Below, piece after piece: positions 54,560 through 64,000 of a DNA stretch of 64,000 bases. Positions within the stretch are counted from its first letter, which is position 1, and the number at the start of each line of letters is the position of its first letter. A program made the position numbers and the translations under genes. Origin of the DNA: Kineosporia babensis (GTDB lineage Bacteria; Actinomycetota; Actinomycetes; Actinomycetales; Kineosporiaceae); NCBI RefSeq assembly GCF_021129305.1, contig NZ_JAJOMB010000001.1:558001-622000 (forward strand), given 5' to 3'. Under the pieces are notes generated by a model that worked only from the letters and a program-made list of their open reading frames with translations, was not told where the DNA came from and did not search any database.

Positions 54560-56815
54560 ATGAACACTCCGCTCCAGATCGCGGTCATCGTGGTGAGCCT
54601 TGCCATGACCGTGGCGGGGGTCGCTCTGCTGGCCCGTGCCGTCAACCGCTTCGTGCAGGTGATCCGCCTCGGCGAGCCGGACCGATCACGCACGAACGAG
54701 CCGGTGGCGCGCAGCACCACGCTGGTGCGGGAGTTCCTGGGGCACACCCGGATGGCGCGGCTGCCGGTGGTGGCGATCGCCCACTGGTTCACCATGGTCA
54801 GCTTCGGTTTCCTGTTCCTGACCCTGGTCACCGCGTACGGCCAGATCTTCGACCCGCACTTCCGGCTGCCGCTGCTCGGTTCGTTCCTGCCGTTCGAGTG
54901 GGTCACCGAGCTGATCTCGGTGGCCGGCCTGGCCGGGATCATCCTGCTGATCGCGGTGCGGCAGAAGCAGCACCCGCGCAGCCAGGGGCGCTCCAGCCGG
55001 TTCTTCGGCTCCACCTTCTGGCAGGCCTACTTCGTCGAGCTGGTCATCCTCGGCGTGGTGATCTGCATCCTGCTGCTGCGCGGCCTGGAGTACGCGCTGG
55101 ACCCCAGCGCCCTGCACTTCCCGCTGGGCCAGCTGATCGGGGCGGGTTTCACCGGCCTGTCCGAGAGCACGCTGGAGAACCTGATCGTGCTGATCGCCGG
55201 GATCAAGATCGCGATCTCGATGTCCTGGGCGATCACGATCGGGCTGAACACCACGATGGGGGTGGCCTGGCACCGGTTCCTGGCCTTCCCGAACATCTGG
55301 TTCAAGCGCAATCCCACGCCGACCCGGGTCAACGACAGCACCACGAGCCTGGGCCCGCTGCAGCCGATCTCGATCAACGGCGAGGTGCTCGACTTCGAGA
55401 AGGCCGACGAGCTGGACGAAGACGCGGCGCTCGGGGTCGGCGCGGTGGAGAAGTTCACCTGGAAGGGGCTTCTGGACTTCTCCACCTGCACCGAGTGCGG
55501 GCGCTGCCAGTCGCAGTGCCCGGCCTGGAACACCGACAAGCCACTCTCGCCCAAGCTGCTGATCATGTCGCTGCGCGACCACGCCTACGCCAAGGCGCCC
55601 TGGCTGCTGGCCTCGGAGGAAGCCCGCAAGGAGGCCGAGAACGGCCCGGACCTGCTGAAGGCGGCCCAGAGCATCGCCGAGCGCCCGCTGATCGGGGCCA
55701 CCGGCTACGAGCTGGAGAACCCGCTGGGCGCGTACGACGCCGAAGGCGGCGTGATCGACCCGGACGTGCTGTGGTCGTGCGTGACCTGCGGCGCCTGCGT
55801 GGAGCAGTGCCCGGTGGACATCGAGCACGTGGACCACATCGTGGACATGCGCCGCTACCAGGTGCTGATCGAGTCGGCGTTCCCGAACGAGCTGAACGGC
55901 CTGTTCAAGAACCTCGAGAAGAACGCCAACCCGTGGGGCCTGAAGCCGCGACTGCGGATGGACTGGGCCAAGAAGCTGCCCTTCGAGGTCAAGCAGGTCG
56001 GCACCGACATCGAGGACCTCACCGAGGTCGAGTACCTGTTCTGGGTGGGCTGCGCCGGGGCCTACGAGGACCGGCAGAAGAAGACCACGGTCGCGATCGC
56101 CACCCTGCTGAACGAGGCCGGGGTGGACTTCGCGGTGCTGGGCGACGGTGAGGCCTGCACCGGCGACTCGGCCCGGCGCTCGGGCAACGAGTTCCTGTTC
56201 CAGCAGCTGGCGGCCCAGAACGTCGAGGTGCTGAACGAGTCCAAGGCCAAGAAGATCGTGGTCTCCTGCGCGCACTGCTTCAACACCATCCAGAACGAGT
56301 ACCCGCAGCTGGGTGGGCACTACGAGGTGGTGCACCACACCCAGTTGCTGAACCGCCTGGTCCGGGAGAAGAAGCTGACCCCGGTGGCGCCGGTCGATTC
56401 GCCGGCCGGGGGCAGCACCAGTGCAGCGACTTACCACGACCCCTGCTACATCGGCCGGCACAACGGCATCTACGAACCGCCGCGCGAGCTGATCGGTTCG
56501 CTGCCCGGGATCGAGTTGCGCGAGATGCCGCGCAGTCAGGAACGCTCCTTCTGCTGCGGCGCCGGCGGGGCCCGGATGTGGATGGAGGAGAAGCTCGGCA
56601 AGCGGATCAACACCACCCGCACCGAGGAGGCGGTCGGTACCGGAGCCGACACCATCGCCGTCGGCTGCCCGTTCTGCCACGTGATGCTCTCCGACGGCCT
56701 CACCGCCAAGAAGTCCGAAGGCGCTGCCCGCGATGAGGTTCAGGTTCTCGACGTGGCGCAGATGCTGCTCGCGGCGGTCCAGAGAGGTAAGGCAACGGAC
56801 GAGGTGGCTGGGTAG
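54560..56815 (+). CDS. membrane iron-sulfur oxidoreductase, EtfD/FadF-like (heterodisulfide reductase family)
   Basis: The 751-residue protein has a membrane domain of about six helices (residues 1-260) and a cytoplasmic ferredoxin-like part with two 4Fe-4S motifs (CTECGRCQSQCP and CVTCGACVEQCP). Two CCG-type domains follow (WVGCAGAYEDRQKK, CAHCFNTIQNEY, HDPCYIGRHNGIYEPPRELI, RSFCCGAGGARMW). This is the architecture of Bacillus FadF and mycobacterial EtfD, which pass electrons from acyl-CoA dehydrogenases via ETF to the quinone pool in fatty acid oxidation. ATG 54560 gives the membrane N-terminus; AGGAG lies 11 bases upstream. Confidence 0.92.
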   Translation: MNTPLQIAVIVVSLAMTVAGVALLARAVNRFVQVIRLGEPDRSRTNEPVARSTTLVREFLGHTRMARLPVVAIAHWFTMVSFGFLFLTLVTAYGQIFDPHFRLPLLGSFLPFEWVTELISVAGLAGIILLIAVRQKQHPRSQGRSSRFFGSTFWQAYFVELVILGVVICILLLRGLEYALDPSALHFPLGQLIGAGFTGLSESTLENLIVLIAGIKIAISMSWAITIGLNTTMGVAWHRFLAFPNIWFKRNPTPTRVNDSTTSLGPLQPISINGEVLDFEKADELDEDAALGVGAVEKFTWKGLLDFSTCTECGRCQSQCPAWNTDKPLSPKLLIMSLRDHAYAKAPWLLASEEARKEAENGPDLLKAAQSIAERPLIGATGYELENPLGAYDAEGGVIDPDVLWSCVTCGACVEQCPVDIEHVDHIVDMRRYQVLIESAFPNELNGLFKNLEKNANPWGLKPRLRMDWAKKLPFEVKQVGTDIEDLTEVEYLFWVGCAGAYEDRQKKTTVAIATLLNEAGVDFAVLGDGEACTGDSARRSGNEFLFQQLAAQNVEVLNESKAKKIVVSCAHCFNTIQNEYPQLGGHYEVVHHTQLLNRLVREKKLTPVAPVDSPAGGSTSAATYHDPCYIGRHNGIYEPPRELIGSLPGIELREMPRSQERSFCCGAGGARMWMEEKLGKRINTTRTEEAVGTGADTIAVGCPFCHVMLSDGLTAKKSEGAARDEVQVLDVAQMLLAAVQRGKATDEVAG

Positions 56816-56920
56816 GTCACAGACCCCTGGCTGACGGGGGCCCGGCTTCCAGAACCGGTCCCCCAACGACCGGTGTGCCAAGAGCAACCGGTGCGCACAC
56901 CGTCCAAAAGCAGTGAAAAC

Positions 56921-56958
56921 AAGCCGCCCGGCCCGGGAGAACCCGGACCGGGCGGCTT
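56921..56958. terminator. bidirectional terminator
   Basis: AAGCCGCCCGG and CCGGGCGGCTT bracket an inner CCGGG/CCCGG stem with loop AGAA. It lies between the iron-sulfur protein gene and the csrA stop 25 bases away, and supports the extended csrA end at 56983. Confidence 0.85.
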
Positions 56959-56982
56959 GCTGTTCACGAGAGGTGATGACCT

Positions 56983-57540
56983 TCAGACGCCTTCGGCGTC
57001 GGTCTCCTCGGCGGGTGTGCCGGGCCTCGGGATCGGACCGATCGGCCCGGGTTTGGGTACCCCCGACCGGGGTGGCGCGGGAACGGGCCGTGATGCCCGC
57101 ATGGTCCGGACACCCCGCTGTTCGTGCTGGCTCGTTCCTCGGGCAGGTGGTGTCGGCACCGGGCGCGACGCTGCACCTGATGCCGGCGGCCCGGCCGGGG
57201 CCGCTGACCCCGGCGTGGGCGGCTGGTTCGATGGCGAGCCGGGCGGTGGACCGGGTTTGGGCGTCGACGACCGGCCCGAACCACCGTTACGCCGTTGGGG
57301 AACCACCGGGCGCGCAAGTCTGCGCAACCGTTCGGCGACCTCCTCAAGGCTTTCCCCGGAGGACGCCGCGGCCGCGTTGGCGGCCTGGACCTCGGCGTAG
57401 ACCTCGGCGCGATGCACCTGGATGCTGCGCGGGGCCTCGATCCCGAGGCGCACTGTGTCTCCCCGTACGTCGAGGACCACGACTCGCACGTCGTCCCCGA
57501 TCACGATGCTCTCGCCGGCTCGGCGGGTCAGTACCAGCAC
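56983..57540 (-). CDS. csrA: carbon storage regulator CsrA with a long proline-rich C-terminal tail
   Basis: Residues 1-60 are a full CsrA: MLVLTRRAGESIVIGDDVRV, GDTVRLGIEAPRSIQVHRAEVYAEV. The RNA-contacting strand 1 (Leu4, Arg6/7) and Arg44 are in place. Normal CsrA is 60-80 residues; this one has 185. The tail begins with a helix (SLEEVAERLRRLARPV) and becomes a proline/serine/glycine/arginine-rich disordered region ending PGTPAEETDAEGV. The frame runs without a break to a terminator. GTG 57540 has GGAGGGAG before it. FliW, the CsrA antagonist in Bacillus, is encoded just upstream. The likely target is the flagellin message. Confidence 0.9.
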   Translation of the reverse strand: MLVLTRRAGESIVIGDDVRVVVLDVRGDTVRLGIEAPRSIQVHRAEVYAEVQAANAAAASSGESLEEVAERLRRLARPVVPQRRNGGSGRSSTPKPGPPPGSPSNQPPTPGSAAPAGPPASGAASRPVPTPPARGTSQHEQRGVRTMRASRPVPAPPRSGVPKPGPIGPIPRPGTPAEETDAEGV

Positions 57541-57642
57541 CGCGGCTCCCTCCCTGGACCCCGTTGGGCCGCGAACAGCAAGGGGCCGCGACCACGGCCG
57601 ATTTCGGGCCGTGAGGAGAGGCTAGCGGATAGTAAGCACCGA

Positions 57643-58071
57643 TCAACCCAGTGGCGCGCGCACCGGCCAGTCCGAGCCGGTCAGGATCACCTGAGCCGCG
57701 GCCCGGTTCTTCGCGTTGATCACCATCGGCGCCAGCAGGTTCGCGGTGGTGGTCTTGGCGTCCTCGCCGGGCGTGAGCACGGTGAGGATCAAGGCGTCCG
57801 CGGCCGACTCCAGCCCCAGTTGCTCGCAGTCCTCGTCATCGAGCTCGACCACGTAGTCGCTGAAGAAGATCGCCGGCGTCGTCACAACGAAACGAACATC
57901 CGGACGCTCCAGACTACGCAGCTCCGAGATCAGGCTCTCCCGGTCGTCGATCCGGGCCAGCGCGAAGTGCCGCAAATCGCTGAACCCGGGAATCGGCCGG
58001 ACGAAATTGATCTCTGGGACGTCAGTCCTTGCTGTCCCGGAATTGCTGTTGGTGAGAAGAGCAGGATGCAT
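57643..58071 (-). CDS. fliW: flagellar assembly factor FliW
   Basis: The 142-residue protein matches FliW: INFVRPIPGFSDLRHFALARID, FVVTTPAIFFSDYVVELDDED, ALILTVLTPGEDAKTTTANLLAPMVINAKNRAAAQVIL. In Bacillus FliW binds CsrA allosterically and flagellin competitively, so free flagellin controls its own translation. The start at 58071 is chosen because the N-terminal extension in the longer frame lacks family similarity. It sits between flgL and csrA in the leftward flagellar operon, with an 86-base gap to flgL and 102 to csrA. Confidence 0.93.
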   Translation of the reverse strand: MHPALLTNSNSGTARTDVPEINFVRPIPGFSDLRHFALARIDDRESLISELRSLERPDVRFVVTTPAIFFSDYVVELDDEDCEQLGLESAADALILTVLTPGEDAKTTTANLLAPMVINAKNRAAAQVILTGSDWPVRAPLG

Positions 58072-58157
58072 GGACCTGTCACCCCATCCTGGCGCCCGGG
58101 CGAGCCGGGGCACCTCTCGGCAACGATGCGCGCTTTTGCGCGCACCCTTTCTGGTGG

Positions 58158-59015
58158 TTACTGCAGGAAATCGAGGAGGGACGTCTGGTTGATCCGGGCA
58201 GTCACGCCCAGGGCGGCCTGGTAGGCCACCTGCTGCGAGGAGAACTTGGTGAGGACCTCGGCGAAGTCCACGTCCTCGTTCTGCGCCAGCGACACGGTGA
58301 GGTCGTTGTTCTGCTTGGCGATCGCGCTCACGCTGGAGGTGACGCGGTTCTGCACCGCACCCACCCGGCCGGTGGCGGTGATCACCTGGTCCATCAGGCC
58401 GTCGAGGTCGCCCAGCCGGTCGGCGGCGGTGCCGTCGAGGATGCCGGCCGAGATGTCGTCCAGCAGCGCGCTGAACTCGCCTGCGCCGATGGAGGTTCCG
58501 TCGACGTCCACCCGGACGGTGGAGGAGGCGTTCAGCCGGACCAGGACCGCGTTGCCGTCACCGGTGTAGTTGCCGTCGGCGTCCACCGCCCCGACCGCCG
58601 AGGTGCCGCCGAAGATCGAGCGGCCCTGGTACTGGGTGTTGTACAGGCCCTGCAGCTCGCCCTTGATCTGCTCGACCTGAGCCGAAAGAGCCGATCGGGA
58701 CTGCTGACTGGAGGTGCCCGCGGTGGCCACGACGTTGCTGCGCACCTGATTGAGCCGGGAGAAGATCGACTGCAGGGTGCTGTCGACCGTGCCCAGCTGG
58801 CCGTTGGCGTAGTCGGCGCTGCGGGCGTACTGGACGTTGGCGGCCTGCTGATTGCGCAGCTGCATCGAGATGGCAGCGGCGGTCGGGTCGTCGCTGGGCT
58901 TGTTGACCCGTTTGCCGCTGGCCGCCTGCTCCTGCAGCTTGTTGGTCGCGGTCATGCTCGCCTGGATCTGGGCCAGAGACTGGTTCATCTGGCCGAGCGT
59001 GGTCACCCTAGCCAT
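58158..59015 (-). CDS. flgL: flagellar hook-associated protein 3 (hook-filament junction)
   Basis: The 285-residue protein has flagellin-like ends: MARVTTLGQMNQSLAQIQASMTATNKLQEQAASGKRVNKPSDDPTAAA at the N-terminus and DFAEVLTKFSSQQVAYQAALGVTARINQTSLLDFL at the C-terminus, which pack in the D0/D1 core. The middle is short (RSIFGGTSAVGAVDADGNY). It forms the second junction ring between hook and filament. It starts four bases after the flgK stop. Confidence 0.94.
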   Translation of the reverse strand: MARVTTLGQMNQSLAQIQASMTATNKLQEQAASGKRVNKPSDDPTAAAISMQLRNQQAANVQYARSADYANGQLGTVDSTLQSIFSRLNQVRSNVVATAGTSSQQSRSALSAQVEQIKGELQGLYNTQYQGRSIFGGTSAVGAVDADGNYTGDGNAVLVRLNASSTVRVDVDGTSIGAGEFSALLDDISAGILDGTAADRLGDLDGLMDQVITATGRVGAVQNRVTSSVSAIAKQNNDLTVSLAQNEDVDFAEVLTKFSSQQVAYQAALGVTARINQTSLLDFLQ

Positions 59016-59019
59016 GTCG

Positions 59020-60438
59020 TCACACCATTCCGATCAGAGTCTGGAGCATTTCGTTGGCCGCGCTGATCACCCGGGAGTTCGCCTGGAACGAGCGCTGGAA
59101 CAGGATCATGTTGGTGAGCTCCTCGTTCAGGTCGACCCCGGACTCCGAGTCGACCGCCGCCTGAGCGGTCGCGACCACGCCGGCCTGCGACTCGATCGCA
59201 GTGTTCAGGCTCTGCAACCGGGTACCGATCCCCGTGACCATCCGGGCGTACTGCGACTGCGGTGACTCCGCCCCGCCGAGCGCGGCCGAGGCCTCGCTGT
59301 CGCGCACCAGGTCACCGAGCTTCAGGGCGTTCGACCCGTCCACCGAAGCTCCGGCCTGGGACGAGATGGCTAGTTCTTCGGGCGAAGTGACCGCCACCGT
59401 GAGCCCCTTGGCCCCTTCACCGGCGAAGAACTCCCCACCTGGAGTACCGTCGAACGTGTAACCCGAGCTGTGAACGGAGTTCACCGCGTCGCGGATACCG
59501 TTCGCCACGATGTCCAGCCGACCGCTGATCTCCGGTAGGTCGGTGTTCAGGGCCGAGAGCACGCCGGCCGCCTGGCCCCCGGACGGGGATGCCTTCACCG
59601 TGCCGATCATCAGCGAGGGCGGGTTCGTCCCGGACTCCTCGATGGTGTTCGCCCCGCCCACCGTCATCGTGTTGGTGGCCGGGCCGGAAACCAGGGTGAC
59701 GCCGGAGACCGCCACCTGCACCGAGCCGTTGTCCAGCGGGGTGGCGGTGGCGCCGGTCAGCCGGACGATGTCGGTGACGGCGGAATCCCGCTGGTCCAGC
59801 AGGGCATTGATGTTGTTGCCGCCGGCCGTGCCCTGCATGATCTGCTGGTTCAGCTCGGCGACCTTGGTGGCGGCCGCATTGACCTGCTCGACGATGCCTT
59901 CCAGGTTGGCGTACTGGTTGCCGAACTCCTCGGCCACGCCCTGGGAAAGGCTGTTCAGCTGAGTGGCGATCGAGATCGCGTCCTCGATCACCACCCCGGC
60001 GGCGGCGCCGTTCAGGGCCGCCCCGCCGTTCGAGCTGCCGGTGGTGGGATTGTTCCCGAGAGTGGTCCAGCTCTGGTAGAACTCGGTGATCCCGGCCTGC
60101 AGGCCGGTGTCCCCCGGCTCCTGCAGCAGGCCCTGGATGTTGTCCAGCGGTGCGGCCTGGGCCTCGAGCGCTTCCTGCTTGCCCACCGCGCTGTTCAGCG
60201 CCGCCGTCTTGAAGGTGCTCGAGATCCGTTCCACCCCGGTCACCTTCACGCCCATGAACTGAGCGCTGTTGCCGGTGTAGACGTTGGTCCCCGGCGCCGT
60301 CTGCTGACTCTCCAGAATCGCCCGCTGGCGGACATATCCGGGAGTGGCGGCGTTGGCAATGTTCTGACTGACCACATTCAGGGCCTGCTGGGAGGCCTGC
60401 AACCCGGTCAATCCGTTGCCCAGGATGTTGAAACTCAT
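59020..60438 (-). CDS. flgK: flagellar hook-associated protein 1
   Basis: The 472-residue protein starts MSFNILGNGLTGLQASQQALNVVSQNIANAATPGYVRQRA, the hook-family N-terminus, and ends ELTNMILFQRSFQANSRVISAANEMLQTLIGMV. The central part includes QQIMQGTAGGNNINALLDQRDSAV. It forms the first junction ring at the hook tip. The ATG at 60438 lies four bases after the flgN stop; an upstream extension in the same frame overlaps flgN and is not family-like. Confidence 0.94.
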   Translation of the reverse strand: MSFNILGNGLTGLQASQQALNVVSQNIANAATPGYVRQRAILESQQTAPGTNVYTGNSAQFMGVKVTGVERISSTFKTAALNSAVGKQEALEAQAAPLDNIQGLLQEPGDTGLQAGITEFYQSWTTLGNNPTTGSSNGGAALNGAAAGVVIEDAISIATQLNSLSQGVAEEFGNQYANLEGIVEQVNAAATKVAELNQQIMQGTAGGNNINALLDQRDSAVTDIVRLTGATATPLDNGSVQVAVSGVTLVSGPATNTMTVGGANTIEESGTNPPSLMIGTVKASPSGGQAAGVLSALNTDLPEISGRLDIVANGIRDAVNSVHSSGYTFDGTPGGEFFAGEGAKGLTVAVTSPEELAISSQAGASVDGSNALKLGDLVRDSEASAALGGAESPQSQYARMVTGIGTRLQSLNTAIESQAGVVATAQAAVDSESGVDLNEELTNMILFQRSFQANSRVISAANEMLQTLIGMV

Positions 60439-60442
60439 GTGA

Positions 60443-60940
60443 TCACAGCACCCGATCGATGACAGCGGGCATGCGCCCGGTAACTGGATCGGCATGGCCG
60501 GTCGCGTCGTAGCCCACCGCCTGGTGCGGGGAGAGCGAACCGAGGGAATTCATTGCGGCCTCGACCAGCGCCATGCCGCTGCTGATCATGGTCTTGTTGG
60601 CATCGGCCAGGGCGTGCAACTCGGCGGTGAGCGCGATCAGGGCCGCCCGGTGCTCCAGCAGGACCCCGGTCCACGGCGGCTGGGCCGCCGCGGCCAGGTC
60701 GGACAGCCCGCTGCCGGCCGGCAGACCGAGCTCGGCCGAGGCCCGGTCTGCCGTCTCCCCCCGCTGCAGTTCCAGCACCTGGAGATCCTCGACGACGGTT
60801 TCCACCTCGGACACGGCGAACGCGATGCGGTTCATCCGGCCGGCCGCGAGCAGGAGCTGCTCGCACTCCAGGCGGTAGCACAGCCGTTCGATCAGTTCGC
60901 GCTGGCGCCAGAGCACCGCGGCAAGATCGGGAAGGCTCAT
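60443..60940 (-). CDS. flgN: flagellar export chaperone FlgN family protein
   Basis: The 165-residue protein is mostly helical: SLPDLAAVLWRQRELIERLCYRLECEQLLLAAGRMNRIAFAVSEVETVVEDL at the N-terminus, then a long C-terminal helix with ADANKTMISSGMALVEAAMNSLGSL, the FlgN pattern. FlgN binds FlgK and FlgL in the cytoplasm and delivers them to the export gate. Its position as first gene before flgK and flgL agrees. Confidence 0.9.
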   Translation of the reverse strand: MSLPDLAAVLWRQRELIERLCYRLECEQLLLAAGRMNRIAFAVSEVETVVEDLQVLELQRGETADRASAELGLPAGSGLSDLAAAAQPPWTGVLLEHRAALIALTAELHALADANKTMISSGMALVEAAMNSLGSLSPHQAVGYDATGHADPVTGRMPAVIDRVL

Positions 60941-61282
60941 CGGGAGATCTCCAAAGAAGGCGTCTTCTGCACGGCAGAAAGCGGTTCAGGTATTCGATCG
61001 GCCCCCGGAGCAGGATCCTGACCGCGGCGGTGATCCGGTCACCCGCTTGGCGGCTTCCCTTTCACCGGTGGTGCGGTCCGTTCGTCCGGACGCTTGCAAA
61101 GCCTGTCGGCATCCGGGTGGCGGACCTGAGCCCGGCGGGTCAGCCAATCGCAGCAACCGCCGCACGAGCGTGCTCACAGGCACTGCTCCAGCCGGGTCCG
61201 GCCGGTTGCTCCGAGGGGGTGCAATGCCGGAAAACCCCTGTAGGACAGTCGAGCCGAAGGTCGTGCCGGTCGAAGACCAAGC
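60941..61282. promoter_or_regulatory. divergent region between flgN operon and fliA
   Basis: The 342 bases contain the sigma-28-like promoter of the flgN operon (60995-61021) and a small dyad GGTGA-TCCGG-TCACC (61029-61043). The fliA side has no obvious promoter or Shine-Dalgarno. The GC-rich section 61060-61140 has hairpin potential but does not satisfy a known riboswitch consensus. Confidence 0.5.
60995..61021 (-). promoter_or_regulatory. sigma-28-like promoter of the flgN-flgK-flgL-fliW-csrA operon
   Basis: On the minus strand TCAG is followed by exactly 15 bases and GCCGATCG. The flagellin gene has the same form (TCAA, N15, GCCGATGG). Both fit the FliA consensus TAAA, N15, GCCGATAA. It lies about 55 bases upstream of the flgN start. 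Confidence 0.75.
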
Positions 61283-62179
61283 GTGGCCGAACTTCCTAAC
61301 TCACCCCAGCCGGCCGGCAAACCCGCCTCGCCCCGTACGGCGGCCGAGGTGGAGGCGCTGGTCCGCGAGAACCTGCCCCTGGTCGGATACATCGCCAGGG
61401 AGACCTCGTCCCGCCTGCCGCGGCACCTGGATTCCGACGATCTCACCGGGGCCGGGGCACTGGCACTGGTGCAGGCGGCGCAGTCCTTCGACCCCAGCCT
61501 GGGCGTGCCGTTCGCCCGGTTCGCGAACACCCGGATCCGCGGCGCGATGATCGACCAGATGCGTCAGCGGGACTGGGCCACCCGGTCGCTGCGCAGCCGG
61601 GCCCGGGCTCTGGCAGCCACTTCCGAGGCCCTCACCGTGGCGCTCGGGCGCACGCCGGCCGACAGCGAACTGGCGGCCGCCTCCGGTCTGACCGAGAGCG
61701 AGATCGGCGAGATCCGCGGTGGTCAGGACCGGGCCTCGCTGCTGTCGCTGGACTCGTTCACGCCCGAGGGCGAGGGCCTGGCGGCGACCCTGCGCGACCC
61801 GGCCCCGCAGCCGGAGGACGCTCTGGTGGCGGCCGAGCGGGTCGGGTACCTGCGCGATGCCATCGCCGAGTTGCCGGATCGGCTGCGGATGGTGGTCAGC
61901 GGGTACTACCTCGAGCAGCGGCCGCTCACCGAGCTGGCCACCGAGCTGAACGTGACCCAGTCGCGGGTCTCGCAGCTGCGGGCCGAGGGTCTGGAGCTGC
62001 TGCGCGAGGCCCTTTCGCGGCTGCTGGAGGCCGATGCCAAGGCCGGCCCGGGCGGGGCCAACGGGCAGGGCGCGCGCGGGCGGCGGCGGGACGCCTACGT
62101 GGACGCCGTGGCCCGGCGCTCCACGGTGAACCGGCGAGTTGACGTCGGGCGCTACCTGAGCTCCCTTTCCGACGTCTGA
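61283..62179 (+). CDS. fliA: RNA polymerase sigma factor FliA (sigma-28)
   Basis: The 298-residue protein covers sigma regions 2-4: LVRENLPLVGYIARETSSRLPRHLDSDDLTGAGALALVQAAQSFDP and PFARFANTRIRGAMIDQMRQRDW (region 2), LGRTPADSELAAASGLTESEI (region 3) and ELPDRLRMVVSGYYLEQRPLTELATELNVTQSRVSQLRAEGLELLREAL (region 4). It is of the FliA/WhiG type. A basic C-terminal tail of about 50 residues (GARGRRRDAYVDAVARR) is longer than usual. It starts at GTG with a weak ribosome site. It should drive flagellin and the flgN operon. Confidence 0.94.
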   Translation: MAELPNSPQPAGKPASPRTAAEVEALVRENLPLVGYIARETSSRLPRHLDSDDLTGAGALALVQAAQSFDPSLGVPFARFANTRIRGAMIDQMRQRDWATRSLRSRARALAATSEALTVALGRTPADSELAAASGLTESEIGEIRGGQDRASLLSLDSFTPEGEGLAATLRDPAPQPEDALVAAERVGYLRDAIAELPDRLRMVVSGYYLEQRPLTELATELNVTQSRVSQLRAEGLELLREALSRLLEADAKAGPGGANGQGARGRRRDAYVDAVARRSTVNRRVDVGRYLSSLSDV

Positions 62180-62245
62180 GGTCTCAATACCGCGCGCGCG
62201 GTAACCCGGACGGCCCCGGAATCAGAAATCTTCTCCGGAAACCCT

Positions 62246-62272
62246 TCAAGAGCGCGGCCGGAGCGCCGATGG
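62246..62272 (+). promoter_or_regulatory. sigma-28-like promoter of flagellin
   Basis: TCAA, 15 bases, GCCGATGG matches the FliA consensus (TAAA, N15, GCCGATAA) closely and parallels the flgN operon promoter. It predicts a transcription start near 62280 and a leader of about 50 bases before the flagellin ATG. Confidence 0.8.
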
Positions 62273-62284
62273 AGCTGCTGTACC

Positions 62285-62327
62285 GGTCCACGGATGGATC
62301 GGGATTCGGCCCACACCAAGGAGGATC
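62285..62327 (+). promoter_or_regulatory. candidate CsrA binding sites in the flagellin leader
   Basis: GGTCC (62285-62289) pairs with GGATC (62296-62300), one G-U included, and exposes ACGGAT in a six-base loop, the preferred CsrA display. About 20 bases on, AAGGAGGATC (62319-62328) combines the Shine-Dalgarno with further GGA motifs. Two sites with this spacing could be bridged by one CsrA dimer and block ribosome binding, as in the Bacillus hag message. Confidence 0.65.
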
Positions 62328-62330
62328 ACC

Positions 62331-63146
62331 ATGGGCATGTACGTCACCAGCAACATTGCGGCCCTCAACGCCTACCGTAACCTGAACGCGACCCAGACCA
62401 GCCAGGCCAGCTCACTCGAGAAGCTGTCCAGTGGTTACCGCATCAACCGTGCGGCTGACGACGCGGCCGGCCTGGCGATCTCGCAGGGCATGCAGGCGCA
62501 GATCGGTGGTCTCAATGTCGCCGTGCGTAACGCGCAGGACGCCATCAGCGTTGTCCAGACCGCTGACGGTTCCCTGAACGAGACGCAGGCCATCCTGCAG
62601 CGTATGCGTAACCTGGCCGTCCAGGCGGCCTCCACCGGATCGCAGGGCGCGAACGGTGCGAGCGCATCGCAGACCGAGTTCGACCAGCTGGCGCAGGAGA
62701 TCACCCGTATCTCCGCGACCACGAAGTTCAACGGTCAGAACCTGCTGGATGGCTCCTACACGGGCACGTTCCAGATCGGTGCGAACAGCGGTGAGAACCT
62801 GACCGTCGGAATCAGCACCAACGTCGACGCCGCAACCCTGGGTGTCGACGCGATCGATCTGGCGACCGGCGCCGACGCGGCCATCGCGACCATCGACGAC
62901 GCCCTGAACAGCGTGTCCACCACCCGCGCCACCCTGGGTGCTTACCAGAACCGGTTCCAGCACACGGTGACCAACCTGAACGTTGCGGTGGAGAACATGA
63001 CCGCCTCCAACGCTCGGATCCAGGCCACCGACATGGCCTCGGAGATGGTGAGCTTCACCCAGGCGCAGATCCTGTCGCAGGCGGGTACCGCCATGCTGGC
63101 GCAGGCCAACCAGCAGCCGCAGAACATCCTGAAGCTGCTGCAGTGA
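62331..63146 (+). CDS. flagellin
   Basis: The 271-residue protein is a short flagellin with only the conserved D0/D1 core. The N-terminus is YVTSNIAALNAYRNLNATQTSQASSLEKLSSGYRINRAADDAAGLAISQGMQAQIGGL; the C-terminus is AYQNRFQHTVTNLNVAVENMTASNARIQATDMASEMVSFTQAQILSQAGTAMLAQANQQPQNILKLLQ. The variable surface domain is minimal (GTFQIGANSGENLTVGIS). AAGGAGG lies six bases before the ATG. Two hairpins follow the gene. It forms the filament and is probably controlled by FliA and CsrA/FliW. Confidence 0.97.
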   Translation: MGMYVTSNIAALNAYRNLNATQTSQASSLEKLSSGYRINRAADDAAGLAISQGMQAQIGGLNVAVRNAQDAISVVQTADGSLNETQAILQRMRNLAVQAASTGSQGANGASASQTEFDQLAQEITRISATTKFNGQNLLDGSYTGTFQIGANSGENLTVGISTNVDAATLGVDAIDLATGADAAIATIDDALNSVSTTRATLGAYQNRFQHTVTNLNVAVENMTASNARIQATDMASEMVSFTQAQILSQAGTAMLAQANQQPQNILKLLQ

Positions 63147-63152
63147 TCAGGG

Positions 63153-63184
63153 TCCGGGCAGTGACCTGAAAGGTCTTGCCCGGA
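63153..63184 (+). terminator. first hairpin after flagellin
   Basis: TCCGGGCA and TGCCCGGA pair around an inner GACC/GGTC stem with TGAA loop, beginning six bases after the stop codon. It may end transcription or stabilise the abundant message. Confidence 0.75.
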
Positions 63185-63201
63185 GTCGTTTCACGAACGG
63201 A

Positions 63202-63238
63202 GATGGGCCGGGCGGGCAGAGTTCCTGCCCGGCCCATC
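63202..63238 (+). terminator. second hairpin after flagellin
   Basis: GATGGGCCGGGC and GCCCGGCCCATC form a 12-bp perfect stem with a 13-base loop. With the hairpin just before, it makes a double terminator between flagellin and fliD. Confidence 0.85.
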
Positions 63239-63285
63239 CTCCATCGCCCCCGCCCTAGCACAGTGCACAGGAAGACCACGTTCCC

Positions 63286-64000
63286 ATGGCATCAGCACCC
63301 ACAGTCTCGTTCAGCGGTATCGCCTCCGGGATGGACACCGCCGGCATCATCAAGCAGCTGGTGGCCGTCCAGGGCAACCAGCAGACCCTGCTGAAGGACC
63401 AGCAGGCCACCCGCAACAGCGCCGTCAGTGCCTACAGCTCGATGCTCAGCGGCATCAGCACCACGGTCGGCCAGCTGAAGTCGCTGTCCAACACCAGTGC
63501 CTGGTCCACGACGGCGGCCACCTCTTCTTCCGCCGCGGTCACCGCGACCGCCACCGGGGGCGTCTCCAGCTCGCTCTCCTTCGACGTGAAGGCAGTGGCC
63601 CGGGCGCACACGATGATCTCGGACGGCTCGGTCGCCTCGACCGGGGCCAAGGTCGCCAGCACCGGTGAGATCACCCTCAAGACCGGTGGTTCCACCACCG
63701 GTACCAAGATCAATGTCGGCACCGGCTCACTGGGCGAGGTGGTCTCGGCGATCAACGGTGCGAACGCCGGCGTCACCGCCTCGGCCGTGCAGACCTCCCC
63801 CGGCAACTACCGGCTCCAGGTGGTCTCCAGCAGCACCGGTGAGGCCTCGAAGTTCGAGCTCGACGGCCTGTCCGGCTTCGCCGGCGGCACCGGAGCCACC
63901 ACCGCCGGCAAGATGAAGGACCTCGTGGTCGGGGCCAACGCCACCATCGTGGTCGGCGCGGACCCAGACGACCCGGACGCCGGTTACGAGATCTCCTCCG
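63286..64000 (+). CDS. fliD: flagellar filament cap protein FliD (HAP2), partial
   Basis: The window ends inside the gene after 238 codons. The N-terminus ASAPTVSFSGIASGMDTAGIIKQLVAVQGNQQTLLKDQQATRNSAVSAYSSMLSGISTTVGQLKSL is the FliD_N domain. The next part, with SLSFDVKAVARAHTMIS and STGEITLKTGG...INVGTGSLGEVVSAIN, is typical of the D2/D3 domains. FliD caps the growing filament and folds flagellin. ATG 63286 has AGGAAG 11 bases upstream. Confidence 0.95.
   Translation, partial: MASAPTVSFSGIASGMDTAGIIKQLVAVQGNQQTLLKDQQATRNSAVSAYSSMLSGISTTVGQLKSLSNTSAWSTTAATSSSAAVTATATGGVSSSLSFDVKAVARAHTMISDGSVASTGAKVASTGEITLKTGGSTTGTKINVGTGSLGEVVSAINGANAGVTASAVQTSPGNYRLQVVSSSTGEASKFELDGLSGFAGGTGATTAGKMKDLVVGANATIVVGADPDDPDAGYEISS

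Follow-up and report, generated by a model that had tools for sequence, protein, structure and literature searches.

A predicted two-site CsrA target before the flagellin gene of Kineosporia babensis, with a hairpin that covaries in its order

Known systems

In Bacillus subtilis the leader of the flagellin gene hag carries two CsrA sites, one of them over the Shine-Dalgarno sequence (SD), and FliW relieves the block (excerpts of PMC7652899 and PMC6529632). Flagellin mRNA is likewise under CsrA in Campylobacter jejuni, with FliW in the network (excerpt of PMC4894983). The high-affinity site of CsrA and RsmE has been described as a hexaloop ANGGAX on a stem, and the loop ACGGAU of hcnA RNA as bound by RsmE (excerpts of PMC4005645).

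What is established about the FliW-CsrA switch comes from Bacillus and Campylobacter. A 2015 survey went no further than to state that FliW may act on CsrA in Actinobacteria (PMC4682653), and in two papers on actinobacterial genomes csrA was interpreted as a biofilm gene or a starvation gene (PMC10384088, PMC8602919). In a search of the open-access literature we saw no description of an actinobacterial RNA targeted by CsrA.

The flagellin locus of Kineosporia babensis

The stretch of DNA analyzed here (the window) comprises 64 kb of the genome of K. babensis, an actinobacterium from soil. An earlier note on it had described, in the flagellin leader, a hairpin displaying ACGGAT on a 5-bp stem and a second GGA at the ribosome site, had placed csrA and fliW nearby and had read the whole as a FliW-CsrA-flagellin switch. 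The features are as follows.

56983-57540, minus strand: csrA, GTG start, 185 aa (Pfam CsrA, 88.6 bits; best solved match 5dmb chain D)
57643-58113, minus strand: fliW, predicted CsrA antagonist (Pfam FliW, 122.6 bits; best solved match 5dmb chain A)
58158-59015, minus strand: gene of a flgL-like hook-filament junction protein, flagellin-related (Pfam Flagellin_N and Flagellin_C; named from its position)
59020-60438, minus strand: flgK (Pfam FlgK_D1, 148 bits)
60443-60940, minus strand: flgN (Pfam FlgN, 64 bits)
61283-62179, plus strand: sigma factor with regions 2, 3 and 4 (Pfam); presumed sigma-28/FliA from its position
62244-62249, plus strand: -35-like element CTTCAA of a sigma-28-type promoter (from sequence; the arrangement CTTCAA/CTCAA...CCGAT is visible in leaders of the family)
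62265-62272, plus strand: -10-like element GCCGATGG, 15 nt past the -35 element (from sequence)
62283-62302, plus strand: predicted CsrA site 1, an RNA hairpin with a 7-bp stem (from sequence, folding, covariation in 72 distinct relatives and a CM match)
62283-62289, plus strand: 5' arm of the hairpin, CCGGTCC (from sequence)
62290-62295, plus strand: hexaloop ACGGAU (ACGGAT in DNA) of the ANGGAX type (from sequence; the high-affinity form according to an excerpt of PMC4005645)
62296-62302, plus strand: 3' arm of the hairpin, GGATCGG, pairing with 62283-62289 (from sequence)
62318-62326, plus strand: predicted CsrA site 2, the SD AAGGAGGAT (from sequence and the leader alignment)
62331-63146, plus strand: flagellin, 271 aa (Pfam Flagellin_N, 134.1 bits; Flagellin_C, 90.6 bits)
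63286-64000, plus strand: fliD, 5' part, running off the window (Pfam FliD_N, 52.6 bits)

The nearby csrA and fliW genes of the earlier note are thus borne out by Pfam, both on the minus strand, where the gene order is flgN, flgK, the flgL-like gene, fliW, csrA. The sigma-factor gene is separated from flagellin by a sigma-28-like promoter and a leader some 50 bases long; the resemblance of CTTCAA and GCCGATGG is to what we take to be the sigma-28 consensus. From these promoter-like elements the RNA is predicted to start near 62279-62280.

The leader hairpin is confirmed and is better than had been described: hairpin and loop stand as noted, and the stem has seven pairs, one of them G-U, rather than five. 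The two-site layout is also present, both in the sequence and in the alignment of relatives, the loop GGA (62292) and the SD GGA (62320) being 28 nt apart and the ATG of flagellin following at 62331. With an ANGGAX hexaloop directly on its stem, the leader has the form of a high-affinity CsrA/RsmE site.

The locus resembles B. subtilis hag in having two CsrA-type sites in the flagellin leader, one of them over the SD, and FliW as (here predicted) antagonist. It differs from hag in that the loop is, throughout the order, nearly always A[CT]GGA closed by C-G, in that the Kineosporia CsrA has a long Pro-rich tail, and in that the flbD/swrD leaders of many actinobacterial relatives share the site (see below). 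With the RsmE-hcnA pair of Pseudomonas it has the loop ACGGAU in common, to judge from the excerpt of PMC4005645; the hcnA stem-loop encompasses the ribosome site, however, whereas the hairpin in the window lies upstream with a second GGA at the SD, and in Pseudomonas the protein is released by sRNAs rather than by FliW. C. jejuni shares flagellin mRNA, CsrA and FliW, but its phylum is distant and the likeness, as far as the excerpt of PMC4894983 goes, is one of the circuit.

The minimum-energy RNA structure of the leader contains the hairpin, a pair between A and U of the loop being optional. The folding energy of the whole leader is no better than that of shuffles (z 0.55 and -0.50) and was discarded as evidence, since energy alone says nothing when a leader folds like its shuffles. 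The combination of loop and stem is rare: among 20,000 dinucleotide shuffles of the window leader, 0.26% have an ANGGAN hexaloop with a stem of 5 bp or more, and 0.05% have one with 7 bp or more (1.15 and 0.13%, respectively, for NNGGAN in the same shuffles). The window and the next 39 kb of the contig together contain 11 listed ANGGAN or ANNGGAN hairpins with at least 5 bp, 10 of them distinct owing to a 1 kb overlap of the fetched stretch with the window; among the 10 only the flagellin hairpin directly precedes an SD and a start codon. No Rfam family matched the leader when 56800-64000 was searched, and two matches elsewhere were far below the gathering score.

Conservation and covariation in the order

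Genomes of the order, mostly drafts, were searched for flagellin (198 genomes, 70 with a match), and the 81 leader rows obtained gave, after 5 duplicates had been dropped, 76 distinct leaders from 67 of the 70 genomes. Additional flagellin copies in some genomes were partly left out of this set and are covered by the whole-genome model search described below; genome G064 stands outside the 76, its flagellin start lying at a contig end. (Its leader has the loop AAGGAT.)

The earlier note had named a lack of conservation of the loop GGA as an outcome that would speak against its reading. A[CT]GGA in a hexaloop, at -39 to -57, is present in all 76 distinct leaders, and the stem covaries. At least four uninterrupted stem pairs were found in 63 of the 76 (mean of 0.47 in shuffles), the other 13 having fewer, with a stem mismatch in some members of the order. 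All 76 also have a GGA around the SD, 23-40 nt 3' of the loop GGA; the SD reads ACGGAGG in 38 and AAGGAGG in 16 leaders, so that in half of the leaders the loop motif is repeated at the second site. A CGAT-type box lies 17-19 nt 5' of the loop in 50 of the 76. Leader L023 (genome G001) has a tandem pair of ANGGAX hairpins before a single gene.

Among 72 distinct hairpins the first loop letter is A in 72, the second C in 65 and T in 7, and the next three are G, G and A in 72 each, followed by any letter. In the same hairpins 109 stem cells are changed on both sides, compared with 38.3 ± 4.5 in shuffled and at most 53 in slid versions; these cells count sequences, not independent events, and the slid controls preserve relatedness. 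The covariation score is 0.471 (0.138 in shuffles), and two-sided changes are seen at seven of the eight stem pairs.

These data bear on two explanations that do without CsrA. Hairpins at the 5' end of a transcript protect mRNA, and this one begins within a few bases of the predicted RNA start; it could be a mere stabilizer of an abundant mRNA, its loop letters being irrelevant. A stabilizer, however, needs no fixed loop, yet A, G, G and A are invariant in 72/72 hairpins while the stem letters change, and csrA tracks flagellin across genomes (see below); we consider this explanation very unlikely. The inverted repeat, which spans about +3 to +23 relative to the predicted start, could also serve a transcription factor as a DNA operator close to the promoter. 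What is invariant, however, is an asymmetric core, the loop A[CT]GGA, whereas the letters of the arms change yet stay complementary, which is the reverse of what an operator does; moreover, the hairpin is found with different arm sequences before flbD and a response regulator. An operator is therefore scarcely credible.

Outside the order the hairpin was looked for in 62 actinobacterial leaders and in 78 from Bacillota and other non-actinobacterial phyla, duplicates and rows with fewer than 90 upstream bases being excluded from both sets. The strict hairpin test is passed by 25 of the 62 (0.53 in shuffles), which indicates that the exact form of the hairpin is not phylum-wide; an ANGGAN hairpin of at least 4 bp is present in 40 of the 78 (0.68 in shuffles).

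Model searches

A model built from 64 leaders, with the Kineosporia family excluded, recovered 13 of 13 Kineosporia-family leaders, that of the window with 39.4 bits; the next-best match in 110 kb reached 13.4 bits. By CM match the window leader scores 50.4 bits.

The full model (74 leaders) was run on the 198 whole genomes. Matches of at least 36.3 bits were obtained in 68 of the 70 flagellin-match genomes, every one at a flagellin-type start, one strong match being that at the contig end in G064, a genome outside the training set. The remaining two, G157 and G184, match flagellin only weakly and gave no strong hit with the model. In the 128 flagellin-less genomes the top score was 26.6 bits.

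Other matches were recorded in passing. Genome G125 has, upstream of its full flagellin, a flagellin-like frame of 113 aa with a hairpin leader of its own (L325, 682-733, minus strand; 36.3 bits). Secondary matches, including L330, were inspected and not tallied as targets; those in L326 and L329 fall within long reading frames and were rejected as apparent chance matches in coding sequence. A CCACGGACGG hairpin stands upstream of rsmH (MraW) in two Kineosporia genomes (L327, 976-1011, minus strand; L328, 1009-1042, plus strand) with only about 21-23 bits.

The partners csrA and fliW

In the order csrA is present in 66 of the 70 flagellin genomes and in 2 of the 128 others, and FliW in 69 of 72 genomes tested. 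In the rest of the phylum draw the flagellin genomes have csrA in 54/56 and FliW in 53/56 cases; of the 336 flagellin-less genomes in the whole phylum draw, 15 have a csrA match, which in one case stays under the family cut-off. That csrA occurs only with flagella thus holds in the order (2/128 exceptions) and less well in the phylum draw. Flagellated actinobacteria lacking csrA, a natural negative control, are almost absent, 4 of 70 in the order (all four drafts of at least 570 contigs) and 2 of 56 in the rest of the phylum draw, and the flagellin-less genomes were therefore taken as control.

Two peculiarities of fliW were seen. Genome G172 (99% complete) has the hairpin and csrA, and FliW was not detectable in it. 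Seven genomes of one genus (G032, G048, G078, G106, G120, G162 and G176) have two fliW matches, side by side where positions are listed.

The linkage of csrA to flagellin also bears on the idea that the loop GGA is a ribosome standby site or second SD that aids translation. GGA can pair with the anti-SD, which is in favor of this idea; standby binding needs accessible RNA, however, and does not call for a GGA held within an ANGGAX hexaloop, and it leaves the link to csrA unexplained, which makes it improbable in the extreme.

The best solved matches of the window CsrA and FliW are chains of one entry, 5dmb, which carries CsrA and FliW molecule names and which we take to be the Geobacillus CsrA-FliW complex. 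CsrA aligns with chain D through residue 75, and the three other printed alignments end at residue 57. The window CsrA consists of the CsrA domain, a FliW-binding-like segment and a Pro-rich tail. L4, R6, R44 and N55, the residues presumed to serve RNA binding and the response to FliW, are retained by all 30 CsrA sequences compared. An N55D variant of CsrA appears in the excerpt of PMC6529632. By its C-terminal segment and N55 the window CsrA is, as far as its sequence tells, of the FliW-responsive type. The Pro/Arg-rich tail of the window protein (56983-57540, minus strand) comprises about 110 residues; tails in the family vary widely, up to a protein of 411 aa in L032.

As in a homeostasis switch, csrA and fliW are encoded together with flagellin, in the window and by linkage order-wide. 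The FliW-CsrA-flagellin switch of the earlier note is thus supported by the two GGAs, csrA, fliW and the kept CsrA residues.

Proposed mechanism

Judged from its sequence, the window holds every part of the Bacillus circuit; that the parts act here as they do there we infer. The flagellin leader is very probably a two-site CsrA target with a FliW-relieved block on flagellin translation. One CsrA dimer would hold the loop GGA and the SD GGA 28 nt downstream and so keep the ribosome off the flagellin mRNA; FliW, when free of cytoplasmic flagellin, would bind CsrA and lift the block; and accumulating flagellin would sequester FliW, closing the loop. CsrA binding, repression, FliW antagonism and flagellin-FliW binding are carried over by analogy from Bacillus and Campylobacter, and the alternative binding of FliW to flagellin or to CsrA is predicted here from homology.

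CsrA might also bind the leader and act mainly by protecting or destabilizing the mRNA. In B. subtilis the level of the hag transcript is also lowered by CsrA binding (excerpt of PMC6529632), and conservation of the hairpin would be equally compatible with repression or with another CsrA effect; the second GGA within the SD region in 76/76 leaders fits ribosome occlusion, however, and we regard an effect mainly on mRNA stability as unlikely. With CsrA as translational repressor, flagellum supply in these bacteria is probably under the feedback switch known from Bacillus.

Further candidate CsrA targets

Beyond the earlier finding, the same hairpin was observed before flbD/swrD in many relatives, weakly in K. 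babensis, and before a response regulator in one family. FlbD is present in 70/70 flagellin genomes. An ANGGAN hexaloop on at least four pairs was found in 35 of 67 distinct flbD leaders (0.10 in shuffles), and 23 of the 67 fall short of four pairs even when one mismatch is tolerated and the loop may be a hexa- or heptaloop. The hairpin is missing in 13 of 13 genomes of the family codes f6, f14 and f19, which make up 13 of the 23. Leaders that combine an ANGGAX hairpin with a GGA-bearing SD are among L331, L333-L363 and L365-L403 (e.g., L331, 950-997, minus strand). In 42 flbD hairpins, selected by [CT]A[CT]GGA so that the loop is fixed by choice and the stem is free, 29 stem cells are double-changed, compared with 9.2 ± 2.5 in shuffled versions.

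Across the Kineosporia family the flbD site is degenerate in most cases. The flbD leader of K. babensis itself has, by eye, GGA in an 8-nt loop only and is absent from the model matches; this loose version is not claimed as a strong CsrA site. In this genome flbD is followed by frames that we read as motA- and motB-like, and in Actinosynnema swrD-motA-ompA-fliL was treated as one operon (excerpt of PMC9019756), so that CsrA, from a site before flbD, could extend its control to motor genes.

A LuxR-type response regulator of family f15 is preceded by a hairpin with an ACGGAC loop and by the ribosome site AGGGAAGAGG, which makes it a candidate second CsrA target (L318-L324); 7 of the 11 genomes with such matches were read, and the protein was named from one.

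Significance

Since a covarying hairpin precedes flagellin throughout one order, csrA can be given a definite role in that order. The hairpin leader is a testable RNA, and flbD/swrD is a second candidate target. On balance we incline to the view that actinobacterial CsrA is dedicated to flagellar regulation rather than to carbon storage, and that its regulon is small and marked by covarying ANGGAX hairpins before flagellin (every flagellated order member sampled), before flbD/swrD ahead of motA-/motB-like genes (many families, absent in three) and before a LuxR-type response regulator (one family). If this is true, CsrA and FliW would time filament supply and motor genes together, and the checkpoint would be broader than the Bacillus flagellin switch.
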